This document shows positions 1 to 10,041 of a stretch of 64,000 nt of DNA, piece by piece. Positions within the stretch are counted from its first letter, which is position 1; each line of letters begins with the position of its first letter. The translations under genes were made by a program, and so were the position numbers. The stretch is taken from NCBI RefSeq assembly GCF_022539405.1, contig NZ_CP054394.1, forward strand, positions 2,612,501-2,676,500. The letters run 5' to 3'. The DNA comes from Natranaerofaba carboxydovora. Lineage in GTDB: Bacteria > Bacillota > Natranaerobiia > Natranaerobiales > Natranaerofabaceae. The notes beneath the pieces are model-generated. The model was not told the origin of the DNA, searched no databases, and saw only the letters and a list, made by a program, of their open reading frames with translations.

Positions 1-582
1 AAGAAAATGTCGCCTTTTAGAGACAAACTAGAACAAAAACTCTTTGATGATAGAGTTAGCTTAATTGATATGCCCCATAAGCCATGGACGCCGGGTATGT
101 GTCCTTTTGATGATGAAGGGACCTTGACTAAAGAAACACCTTTCATAAAAGAAGGGACTTTGTTAAACTTTCCCCTTGATCTTTTGACTGCTAACTCTCT
201 TAAAATGGAGCCAACAGGGCATGCCGTACGCTCTGCCTTAAGTCTTCCGTCTCCTGGTCTTCATAATGCCGTCTTAGAACCTGGCGAAACTGAACTAAAA
301 GATATGATAAAAAGCATAGATAAAGGTGTCTATGTCAAAGACCTGATGGGAGCATGGGCCGGAAACCCTTACGGCGGTGAAGTAAACGGAAACATTTCTC
401 TTGGTTATCTGATTGAAAACGGGGAAATTGTCGGACGGATAAAAGACTGCATGTTTAGCTGTAATACCTTTGAAGTATTAAAGGACCAGTTGGTTGACTT
501 TAGCAAGGAGTCAAAATGGATGGGAAGTATATCTTATCCATATGCGCAATTGGAAGGGGTAAGTATAACGGCAAAAGGATAA
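1..582 (+). CDS. TldD/PmbA family metalloprotease-related protein, C-terminal part
   Basis: The reading frame is open from the first base, so the gene begins outside the window and only the last 193 codons are seen. The segment has the look of the C-terminal domain of TldD/PmbA proteins: a Gly-rich stretch near GNPYGGEVNGNISLGYLIENG and a closing strand of hydrophobic and Gly residues. TldD and PmbA form a heterodimer that degrades unfolded peptides and matures some modified peptides. Which of the two this is cannot be decided from the C-terminus. A 78-bp structured repeat and a T-tailed hairpin follow the stop codon, so this gene is probably the end of its transcript. Confidence 0.8.
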   Translation, partial: KKMSPFRDKLEQKLFDDRVSLIDMPHKPWTPGMCPFDDEGTLTKETPFIKEGTLLNFPLDLLTANSLKMEPTGHAVRSALSLPSPGLHNAVLEPGETELKDMIKSIDKGVYVKDLMGAWAGNPYGGEVNGNISLGYLIENGEIVGRIKDCMFSCNTFEVLKDQLVDFSKESKWMGSISYPYAQLEGVSITAKG

Positions 583-590
583 CCACCCTT

Positions 591-668
591 AGTTATTGCA
601 TACCAACGCTCGCTCGGAATTTGCAGGCACAGTCCAAATTAAAGGCTCGCTTATGGTATGCAATAACT
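591..668. repeat. Structured repeat with variable outer stem, copy A
   Basis: Perfect 15-bp inverted arms (AGTTATTGCATACCA at 591-605 and its complement at 654-668) enclose a core that recurs at 38596-38651 and, more diverged, at 63079-63129. The core includes a small inner hairpin (AATTTG pairing with CAAATT). It lies 8 bp after the tldD-like stop and just before a terminator. Arms differ between copies but stay complementary. This suggests a folded RNA or a mobile hairpin element. Confidence 0.8.
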
Positions 669-675
669 AACACTT

Positions 676-706
676 ACTGATTTTCTTTTAATCAGTATTT
701 TTTTTG
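676..706 (+). terminator. Rho-independent terminator of the tldD-like gene
   Basis: A 7-bp stem (ACTGATT / AATCAGT) with a 7-nt T-rich loop is followed by a run of eight or more T residues. It lies after the gene ending at 582 and before the pdaB start. Confidence 0.7.
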
Positions 707-754
707 CTGCAAATGAATAAATTTTTAAAAAGAATTAATTCAGGGGGGATTTTA

Positions 755-973
755 TTGTTTCATTCTTTAAATGTTAGGAATAAGAAGAAAAAAGCACTTG
801 TACTTTCGCTAATTGTGTTTTTGGCAGCAGGAGTCTATTTAACTCTTCCCGGAAGAGATACGGGAGCTGTGATACCTGTATTTCAGGAGGAAGAGAAAAA
901 GACACCGATCTATTATGTGGATACCGAAGAGAACAAAGTTGCAATTTCATTTGATGCAGCCTGGGGAGCGTAA
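755..973 (+). pseudogene. pdaB: pdaB 5' part: N-terminus of sporulation polysaccharide deacetylase, interrupted
   Basis: This is the beginning of a PdaB-type polysaccharide deacetylase. It encodes a basic N-terminus, one membrane anchor (about residues 13-32) and the first strand of the NodB fold, VAISFDAAWGA, then hits TAA at 971. The TTG start at 755 is chosen because AGGGGGG lies 6-7 nt upstream; an ATG at 713 lacks such a site. Residues after AAWGA are missing here but continue in frame from 8254, behind the same bases. In Bacillus subtilis PdaB (about 254 aa) acts on the spore envelope and is needed to keep spores stable late in sporulation. The gene is either inactivated or awaits excision of the intervening element. 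Confidence 0.85.
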
Positions 974-983
974 TTTTTATTAC
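955..983. other. Left attachment-like junction (attL)
   Basis: This junction comprises the core TGCAGCCTGGGGAGC and the flanking arm GCGTAATTTTTATTAC (968-983) on the element side. The element-side arm is an imperfect mirror of GTAATAAAGTTTTTGC at 8240-8255 (12 of 16 bases, with GTAATAAA/TTTATTAC perfect). The two would face each other in the circular form, 5 bp either side of a central TG. Confidence 0.65.
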
Positions 984-1064
984 AGTATTTTTATTGAAGA
1001 AAACTATTCCCTAGAAAATACTTGCCAATTTCAAGGTGGAAATAAGAGTTATAAAATTGTATTA

Positions 1065-1727
1065 TTAAGTTTCATTTCTTAAGACTACATTATAAATTCT
1101 CCTGGGCAAATCACCCTCTTCAAGTTCTTCTACCTGAAGAATTTGAAAACTTTCAGAAAATCTTTCTATAGTTTTTCTATCAAAAAAATGAATAATAAAA
1201 TCGCTTATATTATATATGTTTCCTTCAAGATGAGTTCCGGTACCAAAATGGGGATCTTTTTTGTTCCTTACGGTATAGATGTTTATACCCCCGTTTTTAA
1301 GTATTCTTTTAATCTCCTTGAACAAAAAATCAAGTTCTTCTGTTTTAAAATTCATACAGCATAATAAATGAGAAAAACATCCATCAAATGAATCATCAGC
1401 AAAAGTCAAAGGTTCTTTTACGTTATGTTGAATTGCCGTAACTCTATTAGACAAATTATGATCCACTGCTTTTTGTTTGATATCTTTAATTCCCTTAGCA
1501 GCATAGTCCAAAACATAAACTTGAAATCCTTCCCGGGCAAAATATAGAGTGTCTCTCCCCTGTCCTCCACCTAATTCTAAAATACTTGTCACCTGGTTAT
1601 CTTTGAACACTTTAGCAGCCTTAACTGCAGCTTCGCTTGGTGATTTACCAAAAAAATCTTCAACTGTATTATAACTGTTTTCCCATTTTAATTGATTATC
1701 TATATATTTTTCATTGTTCGATGCCAT
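1065..1727 (-). CDS. Class I SAM-dependent methyltransferase
   Basis: The 220-aa protein has a Rossmann-type methyltransferase fold. Motif I is ILELGGGQGRDTLYFA (about residues 50-65), followed by an acidic strand end (VYVLDYA) and an FDGCFSHLL motif-IV-like region. It resembles small TehB/UbiE-type methyltransferases, but the substrate cannot be told from the sequence. The start is ATG with GGAGG about 7 nt upstream. It is the first gene inside the pdaB-intervening element and is read against pdaB, downstream of the sortase on the same strand. The gap of about 46 bp allows co-transcription. It is cargo rather than an obvious part of the recombination machinery. Confidence 0.8.
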   Translation of the reverse strand: MASNNEKYIDNQLKWENSYNTVEDFFGKSPSEAAVKAAKVFKDNQVTSILELGGGQGRDTLYFAREGFQVYVLDYAAKGIKDIKQKAVDHNLSNRVTAIQHNVKEPLTFADDSFDGCFSHLLCCMNFKTEELDFLFKEIKRILKNGGINIYTVRNKKDPHFGTGTHLEGNIYNISDFIIHFFDRKTIERFSESFQILQVEELEEGDLPRRIYNVVLRNET

Positions 1728-1773
1728 AACTATTCCTCCATAATATTATTTTAGCCGCTACTGTAACCTGAAA

Positions 1774-2442
1774 TTAATCTTCAAGATAAGCACGTACTAT
1801 TAATCTTTTTTCCGATGATCCAGGGGGCTCACAGGTAGTTAAAGTTAAAGCAGGGTCAGAAGTATCTTCAATTACACTCCAATCATATTTATCCGTTGCA
1901 AATACATCATCTACTTTGTAAATGTATACATTATCTTCAAAATATAATTTTATATTGTCCTCTTCTTCAAGTTTATTTAGCTCACCAAAAGGTGCTCCAT
2001 AAGTGGTTCTATGGCCAGCTACCGATACATTACCATGTTCTGGCAGATTACTATGTGGATAAAATCCAGGGCCACTTTCAAGCTCGGGTAATTCTACGCC
2101 ATAGCCAACCTTAAATTGCAAATTAAGAGCAGGTATTTCCAGAACCCCTTCAGTTTCTTCTAATTTGTAAGCATAGTTTCCCTCTCTTTCATCAGTGTCA
2201 TTTTCCTCTTTTGGAGGAGGTTTTTCAGATGTAAAGTATTCTACTTGAGGAGAAGTGGTTTCACTTTCTTCTTTTTCCTGTACATCCTGTCGTTGTAGCT
2301 GCTCAAGTGTTTCTTCTACCTGCCTTGCCTGTATTCTTTGGTAATACAAATTATGAAAATAAGGGAAAGCGGTAATAAGGATCCCTGCCAACAATAGTAT
2401 TATTCCACATAAAGTGCTTATTGCAATCTTGTTCTTTTTCAT
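1774..2442 (-). CDS. Sortase (class D-like)
   Basis: The 222-aa protein has an N-terminal membrane anchor (about residues 7-28) and an acidic, Gln-rich linker. The sortase barrel follows, with catalytic His in VAGHRTTYG (about residue 144) and catalytic Cys in LTLTTCEPPGSSEKR (about residue 204), the latter followed by the essential Arg. Sortases cleave a sorting signal and attach proteins to peptidoglycan or to each other. The ATG is chosen because GAGGTGAG lies just upstream; a GTG 9 nt earlier overlaps that site. No LPxTG-type substrate is visible beside it, so its partner is unknown. It is cargo of the pdaB-intervening element. Confidence 0.88.
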   Translation of the reverse strand: MKKNKIAISTLCGIILLLAGILITAFPYFHNLYYQRIQARQVEETLEQLQRQDVQEKEESETTSPQVEYFTSEKPPPKEENDTDEREGNYAYKLEETEGVLEIPALNLQFKVGYGVELPELESGPGFYPHSNLPEHGNVSVAGHRTTYGAPFGELNKLEEEDNIKLYFEDNVYIYKVDDVFATDKYDWSVIEDTSDPALTLTTCEPPGSSEKRLIVRAYLED

Positions 2443-2503
2443 TACTCTCACCTCTATTTAATTCCCGCTCCAGAGGGGCAGGATGCAATTCCCCTGTTAA
2501 ATT

Positions 2504-2821
2504 TTAAACTTTTTGATTATCATTATTTGGGGGGTAATAGTCAATAGCAATATCTTTCAAGAATAAAAACTTTGATAATTCAATTTTAGCTACACCCACC
2601 ATTTTTTTTGGATAAAATACTTTTACACCATCAATATCTTGTTTTGTATATTGATCTTCTTCAGGTAAGAAATTCGCTATATTAATGCTGATATTGGAAA
2701 TTTTAGTACTCCCGCCACAACAGCCACCACTCGATGTTTCATTAATAACTGCTGCATTTTTCTTAGATTTGCTTAAAATATAATCCCTAGCTTCGCTGCT
2801 AATCTCCAATTCAAGTGACAT
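2504..2821 (-). CDS. CC/Se-motif family protein (Cys form)
   Basis: This is a small protein of about 105 aa with a central SSGGCCGGST motif and a C-terminal segment (VFYPKKMVGVAKIELSKFLFLKDI). The pattern matches the small CC/Se-motif (seleno)protein family, in which the second Cys is selenocysteine in some members. Here both positions are Cys codons and no in-frame TGA is seen. The function of the family is not established; a redox or metal role is only a guess. An ATG at 2821 and a TTG at 2827 are both possible starts behind the GGGGG site. It sits upstream of the sortase within the element. Confidence 0.65.
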   Translation of the reverse strand: MSLELEISSEARDYILSKSKKNAAVINETSSGGCCGGSTKISNISINIANFLPEEDQYTKQDIDGVKVFYPKKMVGVAKIELSKFLFLKDIAIDYYPPNNDNQKV

Positions 2822-2833
2822 AAGCAAGTACAC

Positions 2834-3242
2834 CCCCTTGGTTTTCTATTTTAACCGCTGCTTTTAAAGTGAGTTGATGATTGGCCAACACTAACCCTCC
2901 AAGGGTCTGAGTTCTATTATTATCCCCGCCCTGTTGGGTAGGGTGGTTTTTATTATTTGAATAGTAACACATCTCTATATTTCTGTCAAACTACTATTGC
3001 TCATCTACTATTGCTCATCCTTTATGTAATTTCTAAGGATTTTAATTGATTATTCTAATCGTTCTATCAATATAATTATATTTGACTAAGTATTCCTGAT
3101 GTGATAACTTAGCAACAAGCCCCCCTTGCGGGGGGTGTAGCAAAATTAATATTTCTATTAATAAACATGTTTTTTATATGGTAATTAAAGACAACCTTTT
3201 AAATCTAAAAGTGCAGATACATACCAAGGGAGGAATCATTTT
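2834..3242. other. Divergent intergenic region with hairpins and a 14-bp direct repeat
   Basis: The 0.4-kb gap lies between the divergent CC/Se-motif and NlpC-like genes. It holds a T-tailed hairpin at 2926-2952, a tandem 14-bp repeat CTACTATTGCTCAT (2991-3004 and 3005-3018) and a GC hairpin CCCCCC-TTGC-GGGGGG at 3120-3135. No further ORF with a ribosome site was found. Confidence 0.5.
2926..2952 (+). terminator. Terminator-like hairpin
   Basis: CCGCCCT pairs with AGGGTGG (one G-T pair) around a 7-nt loop and is followed by a T run. On the + strand it has no gene directly upstream, so it may end an antisense or leader transcript. Confidence 0.45.
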
Positions 3243-4094
3243 ATGTTCAATCAAAATAAACTACTGCATTATCTTTATGTACCCTTAATTTTTGTCTTAT
3301 TGATTTTTGTTTTTACAAATGGTTTAGCTGCAAGTTCAAAGTCAATTGAAATGGAGAGAACTACAGAAATAAGTACACGCCAGCAGATTATTGAAACTGC
3401 ATTAGAAAATCAAGGAGTTCCATATGTTTGGGGTGGTGCATCACCTTCAGGCTTTGATTCATCCGGAATTATCTACTATGTGTTTAACAATAACAGTATT
3501 GAGATTCCACGTGTTCATTTTGATATTTATGATAAAGGACAAGCTATCTCTAAAAATGAGCTTTTACCTGGCGATATTATATTTTTTGAAACCACTAGAC
3601 AAGGACCTTCCCATGGTGGAATATACATAGGTAGTGGTGAATTTGTCCATTCTTCTTCACCAGGGAACGTAGTATCTACAAGTCAGCTTGATGATCCATA
3701 TTACAATGAGAGATTCTATGGTGCAGTACGCTATCTTAATGCAGTCAACGTGACAGTTTTTGTTAACGGAAAAAATGTTGAATTTAACGAACGAAATCCT
3801 TTTATTGATGACGTTAATAGAACTATTGTTCCGCTTAGATTTGTTTCTGAGGAACTAGGTGCCAAAGTAGAATGGGTAAGTGAAGAAGAACTTGTGAAGA
3901 TAAAAAACGATGAGGTTTTTATGGAACTATCCATAGGTAGTCAAACTTACAAACTTAATGGAGAAACAAAGGAAATGGACACAATTGCAAATAATTTTAA
4001 TGGGCGAACAATGGTACCATTAAGGGTTATATCAGAAGGATTAGGATCAGAAGTTAATTGGAACAGTAGCGAAGGAGCTGTGTTTATAAATTAA
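3243..4094 (+). CDS. NlpC/P60-like surface protein with stalk domain, catalytic Cys replaced by Ser
   Basis: The 283-aa protein has a signal or anchor segment (about residues 9-30) and an NlpC/P60 fold (about 45-155). A copper-amine-oxidase N-terminal-like stalk domain follows (about 168-283), with two units containing IVPLRFVSEELGA and MVPLRVISEGLGS. The NlpC signature reads YVWGGASPSGFDSSG, so residue 73 is Ser (codon TCA) where active peptidases have the nucleophilic Cys of FDCSG. The His region SHGGIYIG is retained. It is probably inactive as a gamma-D-glutamyl peptidase, or a binding module. The ATG has GGGAGG upstream. It is the only + strand gene within the element. Confidence 0.85.
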   Translation: MFNQNKLLHYLYVPLIFVLLIFVFTNGLAASSKSIEMERTTEISTRQQIIETALENQGVPYVWGGASPSGFDSSGIIYYVFNNNSIEIPRVHFDIYDKGQAISKNELLPGDIIFFETTRQGPSHGGIYIGSGEFVHSSSPGNVVSTSQLDDPYYNERFYGAVRYLNAVNVTVFVNGKNVEFNERNPFIDDVNRTIVPLRFVSEELGAKVEWVSEEELVKIKNDEVFMELSIGSQTYKLNGETKEMDTIANNFNGRTMVPLRVISEGLGSEVNWNSSEGAVFIN

Positions 4095-4170
4095 ATTAGA
4101 TAATAACCTCATTCGATAATGAAATATTTTTATGAGATACAATGTAATATTTTATTTAATGGTTTAACGG

Positions 4171-4203
4171 TCAGAGTCTCTCGATTTTCTCGAGACTTTC
4201 TGA
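4171..4203. terminator. Hairpin between convergent NlpC-like and recombinase genes
   Basis: GTCTC...GAGAC with an outer TCAG...CTGA pairing forms a hairpin, followed by a short T-rich stretch on the + strand. It lies 77 bp after the NlpC-like stop and 57 bp beyond the recombinase stop, and could serve either gene. Confidence 0.4.
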
Positions 4204-4259
4204 CGTTTTCATTGTGTTCTGATAAAGCTTCAGAAAATTAATGCAAGTTAATAGCAGTT

Positions 4260-5858
4260 TCAATAGAAGGGTGAACTGGTGTTGAATTTTATCTCTATTA
4301 AAGTTTCATTTTCCCCTATAATGATTTGATCCACAAGCTTTATCACAAGTTCTCTATCCAGGCTAGTTATCATAAAATAATCTCTATAGATTTTTTCGTA
4401 GTTTTCGCTCTTTTGTTCTAAGTTAATAAGAGACTTACCCTTTTCCTGGGAAATATCTGCTCGTGTTTGTAGTAGTTTCTCATCTAAGTCTTCTTTTTCC
4501 TTCTGATAATCCTGACGGGTACTTCTATAATCTTCAGCTGATATTTCACCTGCTGCATATTCTTCTCTAATTACTTTTAAGGTCTTATTAATATTATTAA
4601 GCCTATCTTCTAATTGTTTTCTTTTAGTAGATTGATGATTTTGTTGATTACAATTTCTTTTTGCAATATTACTTATTAGTCTTTCAATATTTATTGTGAG
4701 TTTATTAAGTATATTTAGCTGCGTCAAAATTACTTCATTAATCTTCTTAGTCTTAATATTATGATTTGTGCAGTATTTTTTGCCATACTTCGCGTAAGTT
4801 CCACACATATAAAGATCCCTATCGCTTCTATAGACCATTTTGGAACTGCAATCATTACAATACAAAAGACCCGAATATATATTAGTACAATTCTTCTCAT
4901 TAATTCCCTTTGGTTTATTACTGTTGTCTACTGTTTTACTCCGAGATTTTATTCTTTTTTGAATTAGTTTCCACGTTTCATCATCTATAATTTTTTCTAC
5001 AGCATTGTCAATTCTAATAACTTTTTCTTCATTGGTTCTTTTTTTATTTTTTAATTTGAAGTTAATTTTTTGGTACTTTTTTTGAACCAGAGTACCGTTA
5101 TATATTGGGTCTGTTAGAATATTCCTTATTGTGGAAGGACTCCATAGATTTTTACTTGCTTTATTATTTTTATAGTTAATCCCCCGGATTTTTTTGTACT
5201 CTGTGGGAGTAAAAGGAGGGTTTTTGTCATTATTAAGGATCTTAGCCACACTAGAAAAGCCGTTTCCCTGCAAATAAAGTTTTGCAATCCTCAAAATAAC
5301 TGGCTTAACTTTTTCGTCTACTAGTAGTTTATGCTTATCTTCAGGAGCTCTTACAAATCCATAAGGTTCACTTGAGCCAATAAACTTACCTTCTGCCATC
5401 AAAGCATAAAAAGAACTCTTTACTTTATTAGATATATCCCTGCAGTAGTTCTCATTCATAACACTTCTTATCTGTCTCTCTAAGATATTTCCATCATCAC
5501 CACTATTTATACCGTCTGTAACACCAATAAACTTTGTCCCGTATTTGGGAAATATTTCTGAAAAGTATACTTCAGTTGCTATATTTCTGCCAAATCTTGA
5601 AATATCTTTTGATAATACAACATCTATCTCCCCGGCCTGTATATCTTCTTTCATCTTCAAAAAACCGGGCCTGTTAAAATTTGCTCCAGAGCAATCTATA
5701 TCGATATAAACTTCATACAGGATCCAATCTTCTCCCTCTTTTATTTTTTGGCTTACAAACTCATCTATAATCTTTTCTTGATTATTTATACTGTCAGGTT
5801 CTGTATCCCCGTGTGCCCTTGAGTACCTAAGGTATTTAACATATTTTATGGTACTCAC
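4260..5858 (-). CDS. Large serine recombinase (site-specific integrase/excisionase)
   Basis: From the GTG start the protein is 532 aa; this start has GGGGGGAGGCAGG about 6 nt upstream, and the longer ATG frame runs through that site. It has an N-terminal resolvase domain with nucleophile Ser in YLRYSRAHGD (residue 13) and the SKDISRFGRN helix. A recombinase domain follows, then a zinc ribbon (CNDC ... CGTYAKYGKKYC) and a long Lys/Glu-rich coiled coil (about 400-480), the order typical of large serine integrases. These enzymes join attP and attB by a 2-bp staggered cut. The two matching junctions in pdaB are its most likely sites, although it lies mid-element rather than at an end. Confidence 0.93.
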   Translation of the reverse strand: MSTIKYVKYLRYSRAHGDTEPDSINNQEKIIDEFVSQKIKEGEDWILYEVYIDIDCSGANFNRPGFLKMKEDIQAGEIDVVLSKDISRFGRNIATEVYFSEIFPKYGTKFIGVTDGINSGDDGNILERQIRSVMNENYCRDISNKVKSSFYALMAEGKFIGSSEPYGFVRAPEDKHKLLVDEKVKPVILRIAKLYLQGNGFSSVAKILNNDKNPPFTPTEYKKIRGINYKNNKASKNLWSPSTIRNILTDPIYNGTLVQKKYQKINFKLKNKKRTNEEKVIRIDNAVEKIIDDETWKLIQKRIKSRSKTVDNSNKPKGINEKNCTNIYSGLLYCNDCSSKMVYRSDRDLYMCGTYAKYGKKYCTNHNIKTKKINEVILTQLNILNKLTINIERLISNIAKRNCNQQNHQSTKRKQLEDRLNNINKTLKVIREEYAAGEISAEDYRSTRQDYQKEKEDLDEKLLQTRADISQEKGKSLINLEQKSENYEKIYRDYFMITSLDRELVIKLVDQIIIGENETLIEIKFNTSSPFY

Positions 5859-5951
5859 TAAATACCTGCCTCCCCCCATTCAGTTTTACAAGGAGCCAAT
5901 ATAACAAATATTCATATAATGCTGTTTTTCAACTGGTTGATACATTTAAAA

Positions 5952-6143
5952 TTAATCATCTGTATACTTCTCCAATAAATAATCATACAAAATTGAGTTT
6001 ATAGGGATAGAACCATTAAAACTTATCTTTATCTCTTCTTCATTTAATTTGATTTTGTTAGGGTCATTTATCTCCTTTAAGTACTCGTTTATCCTTTCAA
6101 CTGTAGGTAAGTTTAAATTAATTTTGTCAGGTCTAATAGCAAT
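5952..6143 (-). CDS. Small acidic protein of unknown function upstream of the recombinase
   Basis: An open frame of about 61-63 codons ends in YDYLLEKYTDD and has coding-like composition, for example KINLNLPTVERINEYLKE. It has no ATG, GTG or TTG start. Two ATT codons (6143 and 6137) follow a strong GGGGG site, so an AUU start is likely if it is translated. It is co-directional with the recombinase, 93 bp upstream of it. Its size and place would suit a directionality factor or regulator of the recombinase, but no motif proves this. It could also be the remnant of a longer gene. Confidence 0.45.
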   Translation of the reverse strand: MAIRPDKINLNLPTVERINEYLKEINDPNKIKLNEEEIKISFNGSIPINSILYDYLLEKYTDD

Positions 6144-6217
6144 ACCCCCTTTTTATCTAATTATTAATGAGGGGAGTTGTCTTATTACATAAAAAAACGC
6201 GCTTTATTACACAAAAA

Positions 6218-6235
6218 AACGCCCTATCAGGGCGC
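6218..6235 (-). terminator. Terminator of the nucleotidyltransferase-like gene
   Basis: Read on the minus strand, GCGCCCTGATAGGGCG forms a stem-loop followed by seven T residues, 13 bp after the stop codon at 6248. Confidence 0.8.
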
Positions 6236-6247
6236 AAAACCATGAAA

Positions 6248-6532
6248 CTAACCATATAACATAATGCCATCTTTAAGTATTTGCTTAACAAAAGAACAAG
6301 AATTTTCTTTTTTTGCTTCCCATTCCAGCGGGGTGAAAAAAATAAAATCTATCTCGGGGAGATCAAAATATTTACTTATATTATTTTTTTCTAAATCTGC
6401 TACAACACATATTTTTATGTTCGCTTCATTAGGTTTTTCATTTTTATCTCTTTTAAACAAAAATATTTTCTCGGGTTTTAACATTTCTTTTAAATCTTTT
6501 ACTAAACTCTCTAAATTAATCTTCACAGTCAT
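6248..6532 (-). CDS. Degenerate nucleotidyltransferase-like small protein
   Basis: The 94-aa protein follows the plan of minimal nucleotidyltransferases: a helix, then KIFLFKRDKNEK, then a strand ANIKICVVAD, then FIFFTPLEWEAKK and a final ILKDGIMLYG. The catalytic GSRARG loop is replaced by KRDKNE and the paired Asp residues (SDxDL) are gone (ANIKI). It is therefore unlikely to transfer nucleotides. Related proteins act in MNT-HEPN toxin-antitoxin pairs, but no HEPN partner lies beside it. The ATG has GGGGG 6 nt upstream and the gene has its own terminator. This assignment rests on fold pattern only. Confidence 0.5.
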   Translation of the reverse strand: MTVKINLESLVKDLKEMLKPEKIFLFKRDKNEKPNEANIKICVVADLEKNNISKYFDLPEIDFIFFTPLEWEAKKENSCSFVKQILKDGIMLYG

Positions 6533-6657
6533 CTAATTCCCCCTGTTGCCTGAAATCACTCTATCCTATAGTATTTTATTTTTAATTTTTTAAAATATGA
6601 CATCTTCTATGTTATTTGTGGTTGGTTTTTTAATTTGGGTTAAGGCAAAATAAAATA

Positions 6658-6687
6658 ACTCCCGGGTCCTAAAATATCTCCGGGAGT
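6658..6687 (-). terminator. Terminator of the CBS-PAS-HD gene
   Basis: ACTCCCGG and CCGGGAGT pair perfectly (8 bp) around a 14-nt loop. On the minus strand a T-rich tract follows, 17 bp after the stop at 6704. Confidence 0.75.
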
Positions 6688-6703
6688 CATTCACTCATTC
6701 AAT

Positions 6704-8134
6704 TTAATCTTTATTTTTTAGGGCCTGGCTCCACCAGCTTCCAGAAAACAGATCTATGGTTTTTGTTAAGTTAAACATTGGATGAGTATTTTGTTCGTGA
6801 ATAGTTACCTTGGTTCCTTGTACATCAAACGATACTACTGCATCTCTCCTAGTAATTCCAGCAGAACAACCATCAATTATCTTAAATAACCGAAATGAAG
6901 GAAGCAAATGCCCGGGGAAAGACGCGGGGAGTTCTTCTTCTTTATGGTGGTGATAATATATTAAACTAACGAGGTCTTCTTCTTGATCATAGAAGTTCTT
7001 AGCAAATTCGGCACTTCTTGCTGCATGATTTTTGCCATCTTCAAATATCTTACAAGGGTTAACCACAGTCCCTTTTTCTAAATTAGGCTGGGTTTTTCCA
7101 ATATCATGAAATATTATTGCTCTAACCAAAACATCTTTATCAATCCCCACAAGATTCATCACACCTTTTTCGTGCAAATCTGCAGCGACTTTTAAGGCAT
7201 TAATCACATGCCTATAACCACCATCAGCAATCTTATCTGTTATAGTTATATTACCTGTCTTTGAGTCAAAAACATCTTTATATTCAGGGGTACTTCTTAG
7301 CTTATTTTCTACTTTATAGTTAGGTAGAGTAAGGGCAAAAGCTTTATCTAGCTCATTATTCGCTTTAGTTAATTCGATCTGAAGCTTTTTAAGCTGGGTA
7401 ACATCAGAAAAAGTCTGCAGCACACCTTGAATTTCGCCATCATCTTCTTTTAATGGCACACAGTTACTCACATAGTTTTTCCCGTTTATCTCAGGGACTT
7501 CAATCATTTTCTTAGTTTCCCCTAATGCTAAAACCTCTTCTACAATCGGTTTTAGTCTTGGTACACTATCTAGCAAATTATTAATATTTCCAAGCTTGTC
7601 ATCATCTTTTAAGTTTAATTCTCTAGCAGCTTTATTTACCATACGTAAATTCTTATCTTTATCGAAAACTATCAAAGCTTCATGAAGGTTATCTATTATA
7701 TCGGCGAATTCTTCTAGCTCTTCTACTCTTAACCTTGCTTTTTTTTCTTTTTTTTGATAATAATCAAGGGTAGGACGTATGTTCAAAAGCCCTACAGGAT
7801 ATTCGTCTTTAACCACAGGGATCTGATTAATTCTATTTTCCGAAAAAAGTTCAACAGCTTCTGTTATATAACTTTCCGGATTTAAGGTTAAGAGTTTTTC
7901 ACGAGGAGTCATAATATCAGCAGCTGTTGTTTCCTGGTCTTTTTCTGTTTCTTCTTTTGCTATTTCTTTTCTTAAGTCATAACCCGAAATAATTCCTGTT
8001 AGTTTATTTTTTTCGTCTATTATTAAAACAGAAGAAAATCCTGTCCTTAGCATCTCTTCTGCAACCTCGTTCATACCTGCCTTATATATAATAGTACCAA
8101 AATTTTCATCGTCCATTATATCCTTAACCTGCAA
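6704..8134 (-). CDS. CBS-PAS-HD domain signalling protein
   Basis: The 476-aa protein starts with a pair of CBS repeats (about residues 1-125, each opening with an xxDIM motif). A coiled linker, a PAS domain (about 140-250, FADIIDNLHEALIVFDKDKN) and a C-terminal HD phosphohydrolase-type domain (about 300-440, with AIIFHDIGKTQPN and YYHHHKEEE) follow. CBS pairs bind adenine nucleotides and HD domains hydrolyse phosphoesters, so nucleotide signalling is likely; the substrate is unknown. The TTG start has AGGGGAG 6 nt upstream. It is the cargo gene nearest the right end, read away from the junction, and ends in a strong terminator. Confidence 0.82.
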   Translation of the reverse strand: MQVKDIMDDENFGTIIYKAGMNEVAEEMLRTGFSSVLIIDEKNKLTGIISGYDLRKEIAKEETEKDQETTAADIMTPREKLLTLNPESYITEAVELFSENRINQIPVVKDEYPVGLLNIRPTLDYYQKKEKKARLRVEELEEFADIIDNLHEALIVFDKDKNLRMVNKAARELNLKDDDKLGNINNLLDSVPRLKPIVEEVLALGETKKMIEVPEINGKNYVSNCVPLKEDDGEIQGVLQTFSDVTQLKKLQIELTKANNELDKAFALTLPNYKVENKLRSTPEYKDVFDSKTGNITITDKIADGGYRHVINALKVAADLHEKGVMNLVGIDKDVLVRAIIFHDIGKTQPNLEKGTVVNPCKIFEDGKNHAARSAEFAKNFYDQEEDLVSLIYYHHHKEEELPASFPGHLLPSFRLFKIIDGCSAGITRRDAVVSFDVQGTKVTIHEQNTHPMFNLTKTIDLFSGSWWSQALKNKD

Positions 8135-8239
8135 TGTTATCTCCCCTTTTTAGTAGTTAATATATATTCATAATCATTCCTATATATTTATAGTTCGGTG
8201 CAAAAATAAAAAAGATTTGAAATTTTGACCAGGCAAGTA

Positions 8240-8267
8240 GTAATAAAGTTTTTGCAGCCTGGGGTGC
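8240..8267. other. Right attachment-like junction (attR)
   Basis: The element-side arm GTAATAAAGTTTTTGC (8240-8255) leads into the shared core TGCAGCCTGGGGTGC (8253-8267), after which pdaB coding sequence resumes. In the inferred chromosomal product the core GCAGCC-TG-GGGTGC is itself a near dyad, as expected of a serine-integrase attB. Confidence 0.65.
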
Positions 8268-8838
8268 CAAAAACACTGATGAGCTTTTAGAAATCCTAGA
8301 CGAATTTGAGATTAAAACCACATTCTTCTTAACAGGGTTTTGGATCGAAAATTATCCTGAAAAAGTTGAAGAAATTGCTGATAAAGGACACGAAGTTGAA
8401 AATCACAGTTATAATCACTCCCACATGAGTAAACTAAATGAAAATCAAATTAAAGATGATGTTGAAAAGGTACACCACCAAATTCATGATTTAACGGATA
8501 GAGAACCAATACTATTTCGCCCACCCTTTGGTGATTACAATAATAGACTGGTAGAAACTTTAGAAGAAATTGATTACTATCCTGTACAGTGGAGCATTGA
8601 CTCCCTTGACTGGCAGGCTCCAGATCATAACTACATCGTCGACAAAGTTACAGACGAAATCCATCCAGGTGCTATAGTCCTTTTTCACAACAACGGTACC
8701 CACACACCTGAAGCCTTAAGAGATATTCTAGCCTGGTTAGAAGAAAATGAATATGAAGTTGTTCCAGTGTCAGAGCTAATCTACAAAGATAATTACTCAG
8801 TAGATCCAAATACAGGTGCCCAGATCAAAGAAAATTAA
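8254..8838 (+). pseudogene. pdaB: pdaB 3' part: NodB-type polysaccharide deacetylase catalytic domain
   Basis: This open frame has no plausible start of its own and begins with the codons for AAWGAKNTDELLEILDEF, which follow on from the N-terminal part at 755-970. NodB motifs are present: the shared SFDAAW strand (usually TFD), HSYNHSHMSKL (metal-binding HSxxH region), LFRPPFGDYN, and the late IVLFHNN strand. In many PdaB-type proteins catalytic residues are atypical, as the DAAW in place of DDG here. Translated with the 5' part through the shared core it gives about 261 residues, close to the 254 of B. subtilis PdaB. The internal ATG at 8425 would give only a truncated domain. Confidence 0.88.
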
Positions 8839-8878
8839 ATGCACCAGTATATTAAGTCAGGGTGATTTATAACATGTA

Positions 8879-9949
8879 CTATAGCATGCTGTCAGTAATA
8901 GTTATAGTATTATATTCTTCTTCACGAAGATCTATATCATATGGCTCTACTTCTTCGCCATTTTCCTCAATAACTCTTATTTTGGGGCGAAGACTAAACT
9001 TTTCAAAATTCTTAATTACAAAAGCAATCCTTCCATCACTTAACTTTACTTTTGTCCCTACAGGATAAGTAGCAACTTTTCTAAAGAAATGACCTACAAC
9101 CTGCCTGTCAAATAATGATCCTGCCCCACCTAGTATGTATTCCATCGCTTCTGAGGGGGAATAGGACTTTCTATACGGCCTATCCGATATTAATGCATCA
9201 AAAACATCTGCTACTGCAGTAATCCTGCTAAACAAATGTATCCCATCATGAGTTTTACCCTCAGGGTAGCCTTCGCCGTTGCACCTTTCATGATGATGAA
9301 GAGCTACAGTTGTAGAAGTAGAAGAAAGTTCATTATTCTCCCTTAATATTTCATACCCTTTTCTGCTGTGCTGCTTAACTTTTTCGTATTCTTCTTCTGT
9401 CAGATCCCCTTCTTTTTCTAAAATAGAATTTGGCACAGCAGTTTTACCTATATCGTGCAAAAGAGCACCTAAACCAAGCTTGTACAACTGCATCTGATCA
9501 AGTTCCATCGATATCCCAACAATAACAGAAATTATTGCTACATTAACACTGTGTTGAAAGGTATAATTGTTGTACATCTTTAGGTCTACCATGTTTACCA
9601 TTAAGTCTTTATTTTTAATTATCTCTTCAATTAAATTGCTTGTAGTAACTTTAATATACTTTGTATCGTTAGGTGATATGGTTGTTTTTTTCTCAACTTC
9701 AGAGAATGTTTCTTTGATATTGTTCACTGATTCTCTTCTAAGTTCTTCATTAACTATATCATTAACTTCTAAGTCCTTTAACGTCTCATCCTGTATATAA
9801 ACATTACTATATCCTAGCTCTTCTATTTTAGGTATGTATTGTTGTTTTAAAGTAGCTCCTTCTTGTAAAAGTATTGTGCCTTTTTCACTGTATACTGGTT
9901 TGGCAAGCATCATTCCTTCTTCAATTTCTTCTATATTTACAAGCCTCAT
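8879..9949 (-). CDS. HD-GYP domain phosphodiesterase-like protein
   Basis: The 356-aa protein has an N-terminal DUF3391-like region (RLVNIEEIEEGMMLAKPVY) and a central HD-GYP domain (about 125-300) carrying LLHDIGKTAVP and HHERCNGEGYP. A small beta-rich tail follows. HD-GYP proteins hydrolyse cyclic di-GMP or related dinucleotides and so govern motility or surface life. All metal-ligand motifs look intact. The ATG at 9949 is chosen because GGAGG sits 6 nt upstream; the frame extends upstream without a ribosome site. It is convergent with pdaB. Confidence 0.9.
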   Translation of the reverse strand: MRLVNIEEIEEGMMLAKPVYSEKGTILLQEGATLKQQYIPKIEELGYSNVYIQDETLKDLEVNDIVNEELRRESVNNIKETFSEVEKKTTISPNDTKYIKVTTSNLIEEIIKNKDLMVNMVDLKMYNNYTFQHSVNVAIISVIVGISMELDQMQLYKLGLGALLHDIGKTAVPNSILEKEGDLTEEEYEKVKQHSRKGYEILRENNELSSTSTTVALHHHERCNGEGYPEGKTHDGIHLFSRITAVADVFDALISDRPYRKSYSPSEAMEYILGGAGSLFDRQVVGHFFRKVATYPVGTKVKLSDGRIAFVIKNFEKFSLRPKIRVIEENGEEVEPYDIDLREEEYNTITITDSML

Positions 9950-10041
9950 AACGGTCCTCCCTCTACGGGTATTAGACAATGTTCAACAATATAATAATTT
10001 CAATATTTTTCTTCAATTTCCTCTAAAATTCGACATAAAAA

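Follow-up and report, generated by a model that had tools for sequence, protein, structure and literature searches.

In the genome of Natranaerofaba carboxydovora, within a 64-kb window (the whole stretch analysed here: contig NZ_CP054394.1, positions 2,612,501 to 2,676,500, to whose own numbering coordinates refer unless stated otherwise), the sporulation gene pdaB is split by an element that measures 7298 bp from core to core. The two junctions are almost certainly attL and attR sites of a large serine recombinase (LSR), formed from attB and attP about a central TG dinucleotide. Joining the outer flanks gives one open pdaB frame, running from the N-terminal segment through VAISFDAAWG into the deacetylase domain, and the same codons are occupied in two other genomes by different elements that share with this one a recombinase type and a small gene; the frame is restored exactly in all three cases. 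The region has the anatomy of an intervening element of a sporulation gene, namely a split sporulation gene and exact frame restoration, and the element is probably removable, like the inserts known from sigK.

The evidence begins with the junctions themselves. The 12-bp core TGCAGCCTGGGG stands as a direct repeat, in the same orientation, at 955-966 and 8253-8264, and a search for GCAGCCTGGGG with at most one mismatch returned exactly these two positions in the window (chance mean 0.37). Rightward of the two copies, the sequences first diverge at A967 versus T8265. On the forward strand, attL (938..987) comprises the attB left half, the TG at 962-963 and the attP right half, and attR (8236..8285) the attP left half, the TG at 8260-8261 and the attB right half. 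Joining the inner flanks rebuilds an attP, GTAATAAAGTTTTTGC-AGCC-TG-GGGA-GCGTAATTTTTATTAC, which is a long imperfect dyad centred between the T and the G of the core's single TG. Scored as matching pairs over the first 24 positions on either side of the TG, with shuffled left arms as the null, 14 of the 24 pairs match (p=0.001); when the centre is slid from -12 to +12, the TG is the unique maximum, with 11/18 pairs against 7/18 for the next best position. The original prediction had described this dyad as 12 of 16 matching arm bases, eight of them consecutive, about the TG, and its description holds, the eight being the outer bases. The symmetry reaches some 22-24 bp on each side of the TG, which fits the long attP expected of an LSR, and the rebuilt site is the pseudo-palindrome of about 50 bp around a central dinucleotide by which such sites are recognized. 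An LSR attB is by the same token shorter and less symmetric, with the same dinucleotide and the zinc-domain motif lying about 5 bp further inward. The near-dyad originally proposed for attB is indeed present around the same TG, but it is weak (10/24 pairs, p=0.07), with near-symmetry confined to the inner 6 bp, and across the three elements the attB dyads (10, 13 and 9 of 24 pairs) are not significant in two.

Three genomes of the order were compared, G001 and G002 among them; the third occupied site was found in UBA7523, a metagenome-assembled genome (G398), and the window's own genome is referred to as G000. In G001, pdaB is uninterrupted and reads GATGCTGCCTGGGGTGCAGAA, with a T at the position of 8265, so that T8265 is the chromosomal (attB) base and A967 the attP base; attR of G002 agrees, and the divergent pair is divided between the two sites as had been anticipated. 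The pdaB gene of G002 has an insert of 46.6 kb with the 12-bp core of the window element at both ends, and the LSR gene adjoins the pdaB 5' part. In UBA7523, the pdaB 5' part, ending FDASW, lies directly beyond the LSR gene, and the 3' part, on another contig, starts SSWGAEHTEKIL. Since the attL (GATGCTTCT-TG-GGATGATGG) and attR (TTCATCC-TG-GGGAGCC) of this genome share only TGGG, exchange is confined to these bases. The attP sites rebuilt from G002 and UBA7523 each match at 18 of 24 pairs about the TG, a score reached in neither case by any of 200,000 shuffles, and the dyad is thereby centred on the same TG in all three elements (14, 18 and 18 pairs). Positions G1, G2, G5, T13, T15, A16, A19 and C20 are invariant in the six attP half-sites. 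An attB AC motif, overlapping a conserved Thr codon, is shifted by 5 bp in all three right halves; we do not count this shift, because the test was chosen after the sites had been seen, the left halves misfit and the best shift for the pooled halves is 7.

The split falls in the codons of the catalytic motif FDA-A-W-G, the TG supplying bases 1-2 of the Trp codon. Up to the crossover dinucleotide, the pdaB 5' part (755..963, forward strand) has a TTG start after GGGGGG, a signal or transmembrane segment and the first motif, FDAA, and it has orthologues in relatives; the 3' part (8260..8838, forward strand) encodes the catalytic deacetylase domain (Polysacc_deac_1, E=1.3e-29; 99% match to the spliced query). 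Spliced PdaB matches TIGR02764 with E=5e-67 and 225 bits, slightly under the 237-bit cut-off, and scores far higher against this model than against those of PdaA and YlxY. No other intact pdaB orthologue is present in G000 (3.26 Mb, one contig). Because synonymous sites are saturated in a dN/dS analysis of the split gene, only the relative-rate comparison is informative: the protein distance to G000 is 0.315 for the split pdaB of G002 versus 0.301 for the intact gene of G001, no clearly faster divergence, which counts mildly against decay but would also be compatible with a recent insertion. A scan for the pdaB family in 398 genomes listed the highest-scoring full-length matches and gives no measure of how often the gene is split.

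The recombinase (539 amino acids; 4260..5879, reverse strand) is intact, with the Resolvase, Recombinase and zinc-ribbon domains (PF00239, PF07508, PF13408) all over cut-off in one protein. In an alignment of the LSRs of the three elements, S20 and the zinc-ribbon cysteines C341, C344, C359 and C370 are kept throughout. Those of G002 and UBA7523 are the most similar found, each being 55% identical to the window LSR; UBA7523 was the one further relative recovered when peptide patterns were sought across 84,980 species genomes, and among the genomes scanned LSRs at least 50% identical occur only in G000, G002 and UBA7523. Viral contigs, phages and plasmids yielded nothing above ~32% identity, and a sample of 398 genomes from the phylum no further member above E=1e-90. 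One other genome (G035) carries an LSR ~7 kb from pdaB, yet its pdaB is uninterrupted and it was set aside as a further case. The nearest solved structure is that of the TnpX N-terminal domain (2mhc). An intact LSR, and relatives whose elements split pdaB at the same codons with an attP symmetric about the same TG, bear out the serine-integrase-like att sites of the original prediction.

Just 5' of the LSR gene lies an open reading frame (ORF) of 61 amino acids (5952..6137, reverse strand) that resembles DUF6870 and appears to start at an ATT 7 nt after GGGGG. Its homologues, 39% and 41% identical, lie 5' of the LSR gene in both other elements, and this pair, in the same order, is what the three elements were found to have in common (for UBA7523, in the element part on locus L059). 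All three small proteins match DUF6870 (PF21757), those of G002 and UBA7523 over the cut-off and the window copy under it. In G002 too (C2 ~409590-409790) the apparent start is an ATT that follows a strong ribosome-binding site by ~7 nt, whereas UBA7523 has an ATG. Among 299 genomes sampled from the phylum, nine DUF6870 loci scored over the cut-off (L104-L110, L112, L113), and every one of them has an LSR gene immediately after it on the same strand, which makes the family a recurrent companion of LSRs. On account of this linkage, and of its place 5' of the LSR gene in three elements, we regard the DUF6870-like protein as a candidate recombination directionality factor, a role that its position, size and conservation would fit. 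Just upstream of the two genes, at 6181-6225, a near-identical pair of tracts, CTTATTACATAAAAAAACGC and CTTTATTACACAAAAAAACGC, resembles the attP outer arm and is possibly a binding site of the recombinase, although it is not significant alone. For the extra copy of this arm at 6202, a role as an autoregulatory site was weighed and dropped, motifs with one mismatch being no rarer than expected.

The B. subtilis pdaB gene (spoVIE) is a member of the sigma-E regulon, and sporulation of its mutant is down to ~5% (PMC4703394); SpoIIID binds upstream of the gene, there also called ybaN (PMC517825). Spo0A, SigE and SpoIVA are found over cut-off in all three hosts of a split pdaB, and SigG was confirmed in G000. 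In the same three hosts, sigK is interrupted as well, again by LSR elements but by other ones, and G001 has both genes intact. In G000 (C1:1639055-1642523; L114:13056-16524), the CIENEIL segment is cut off from the remainder of sigK by an insert of 2.74 kb that carries an LSR and a GNAT-like gene; joining the parts across TGAAATACTTAT restores SigK, and the attP rebuilt from this insert matches at 14/20 pairs about another dinucleotide, GA. The sigK parts of G002 (C2:1802945-1837315) lie ~33.7 kb apart with an LSR gene between them, and those of UBA7523, where the split position differs, are on two contigs (G398 C51, C25; L098, L123), the first part being followed by what appears, read by eye, to be an LSR gene on the opposite strand. 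Inserts in sigK are excised in the mother cell (PMC5025042). The joint splitting of sigK and pdaB is the pattern that shared developmental excision would give, the genomes being too few for statistics.

Given the place of pdaB among the mother-cell genes of sporulation, and the LSR inserts that interrupt sigK in the same hosts, we favour excision of the skin type in the mother cell. The LSR would insert the 7.3 kb non-phage integrative element at an attB within the FDA-A-W-G codons of pdaB, exchanging strands at the TG of 962-963 and 8260-8261 and leaving pdaB split, with attL and attR at the ends of the element. Excision would run this reaction backwards, probably with the aid of the DUF6870-like protein, and rebuild an unaltered pdaB frame. 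We infer that it takes place in the sporulating mother cell, the germ line retaining the element. This account as a whole seems to us probable; its tie between excision and sporulation, taken alone, is the reading towards which we lean.

Several observations weigh against it. The data are assembled genomes, in which neither the excised chromosome nor a circle was seen, and the co-splitting of sigK and pdaB rests on four genomes. The window copy of the DUF6870-like gene has no standard start codon and falls below the Pfam cut-off, and some recombinases of the TnpX/TndX type, the nearest characterized relatives by sequence, excise without a separate factor. In the upstream regions of pdaB, of the DUF6870-like ORF and of the LSR gene, no sigma-E-like promoter scored above shuffled sequence. 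Finally, G002 appears to be Natranaerobius thermophilus. This species has been described as non-sporulating (PMC3533761), so that the split pdaB of G002 could be plain gene loss. The empty promoter search and the likely identity of G002 would also suit an integrative element of the ordinary sort that has the conserved pdaB motif for its attB, inactivates the gene and excises rarely, for transfer only and with no link to sporulation; the element of UBA7523 carries genes for a type IV secretion system (T4SS) coupling protein and a TraG P-loop ATPase, like a plain conjugative element. Such an explanation has difficulty with a frame restored exactly three times out of three, with pdaB parts whose frames are intact and whose protein in G002 has not diverged clearly faster than in G001, and with hosts that all retain sporulation regulators and have sigK split as well. 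We take it seriously and consider it unlikely.

An immobile remnant within a pdaB pseudogene would account for the absence of transfer genes from the window element and for the unusual ATT start of its small ORF. This start alone is no sign of decay, since the ORF of G002 also apparently begins with ATT after a good ribosome-binding site, and a dead element would hardly be expected to combine an intact LSR with conserved key catalytic and zinc-ribbon residues, symmetric half-sites kept in both attL and attR, and two open pdaB parts; we judge this very improbable. The original prediction had itself named as its refutation a core that is merely PdaB coding sequence duplicated by chance; on this reading the dyad would be a coincidence. 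The core does encode a conserved motif, yet in three genomes different elements, whose LSRs are homologous, sit at the same site, and beyond the core the attP dyad, although it is not coding sequence, has the same centre in all three. Recurrence and the symmetry of the non-coding half-sites exclude this alternative.

The remaining genes of the element, all on the reverse strand save one, are cargo: a class I methyltransferase assigned by family match as MduS-like (1065..1727), a sortase whose closest models are of class E/D (1774..2451), a CC/Se-motif family protein (2504..2833; NF041239, above cut-off), an NlpC/P60 peptidase with a copper-amine-oxidase N-terminal domain (3243..4094, forward strand), a 94-amino-acid protein for which family searches found no family (6248..6532) and a CBS-PAS-HD domain protein (6704..8134). 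Two of them, the methyltransferase and the CC/Se-motif protein, belong to selenoprotein-linked families. No phage or conjugation genes were recognized within the window element. Outside it, between a tldD/pmbA-like gene and pdaB, the segment 588-671 forms a strong hairpin (fold z-score -7.8) whose inverted repeat, AGTTATTGCATACCA, is perfect over 15 bp; an Rfam scan of positions 1-10000, this hairpin included, gave no match.

Intervening elements are known in sigK, spsM, spoVFB, spoVR, gerE and yabG (PMC10747680, PMC4191935, PMC5595907), a series of sporulation genes split by removable DNA that pdaB would join if our account is true; we found no earlier report of one in pdaB in the open-access literature, which is no proof of novelty. 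With three elements of one recombinase type at one conserved codon block, the recognition of sites by LSRs can be studied in a compact natural data set. The DUF6870 family, whose function is unknown, could now be tested as a directionality factor for the LSRs of many Firmicutes, and genomes in which both sigK and pdaB are split would lend themselves to the question of whether a single terminal cell coordinates several excisions. More tentatively, an LSR lineage specialized for pdaB, riding on elements as different as a 7.3 kb cargo island, a 46.6 kb island and a conjugative-type element, might act as a sporulation-timed switch of spore-wall synthesis, with DUF6870 as a widespread new directionality-factor family and a single mother cell freeing both sigK and pdaB of their inserts.

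The closest parallels are the skin elements of sigK (B. subtilis SpoIVCA; C. difficile CD1231/CD1234; PMC5025042), in which an LSR element likewise splits a mother-cell sporulation gene, with exact frame restoration and a small accessory gene, CD1234 being a demonstrated directionality factor in C. difficile (PMC5025042). They differ in host gene and LSR lineage; the DUF6870-like protein is likened to CD1234 without a shown sequence relation, and excision from pdaB is argued by analogy. The gin element in gerE of B. cereus ATCC10987 is similarly non-phage, with an LSR, a small factor and an element site that has an inverted repeat about the central dinucleotide, and its direct repeat is 9 bp against 12 bp in pdaB; unlike the pdaB element, it spans 28.6 kb, has three recombinases, lies in gerE and is proven by assay (PMC5595907). 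SPbeta in spsM, vfbin in spoVFB and vrin in spoVR (PMC4191935), and yin in yabG (PMC10747680), are also intervening elements of sporulation genes and excise from the chromosome, but have phage- or prophage-like content and occupy other genes. Among LSRs that have been annotated or have a domain of solved structure, TnpX and TndX (the latter with ~31% identity), of Tn4451/Tn5397-type conjugative transposons, come closest, whereas the window LSR lineage was found only in pdaB. The architecture of the attP sites recalls that of the Listeria A118/LI integrase, with half-sites of ~25 bp, a pseudo-palindrome about a central dinucleotide and a conserved C at half-site position 20 (PMC3783163); the solved Listeria complex shows C20 and T21 in contact with the zinc domain (PMC3783163). 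In the Listeria attB the zinc-domain motif lies 5 bp inward, an arrangement that the right halves of the pdaB elements fit and the left halves do not.

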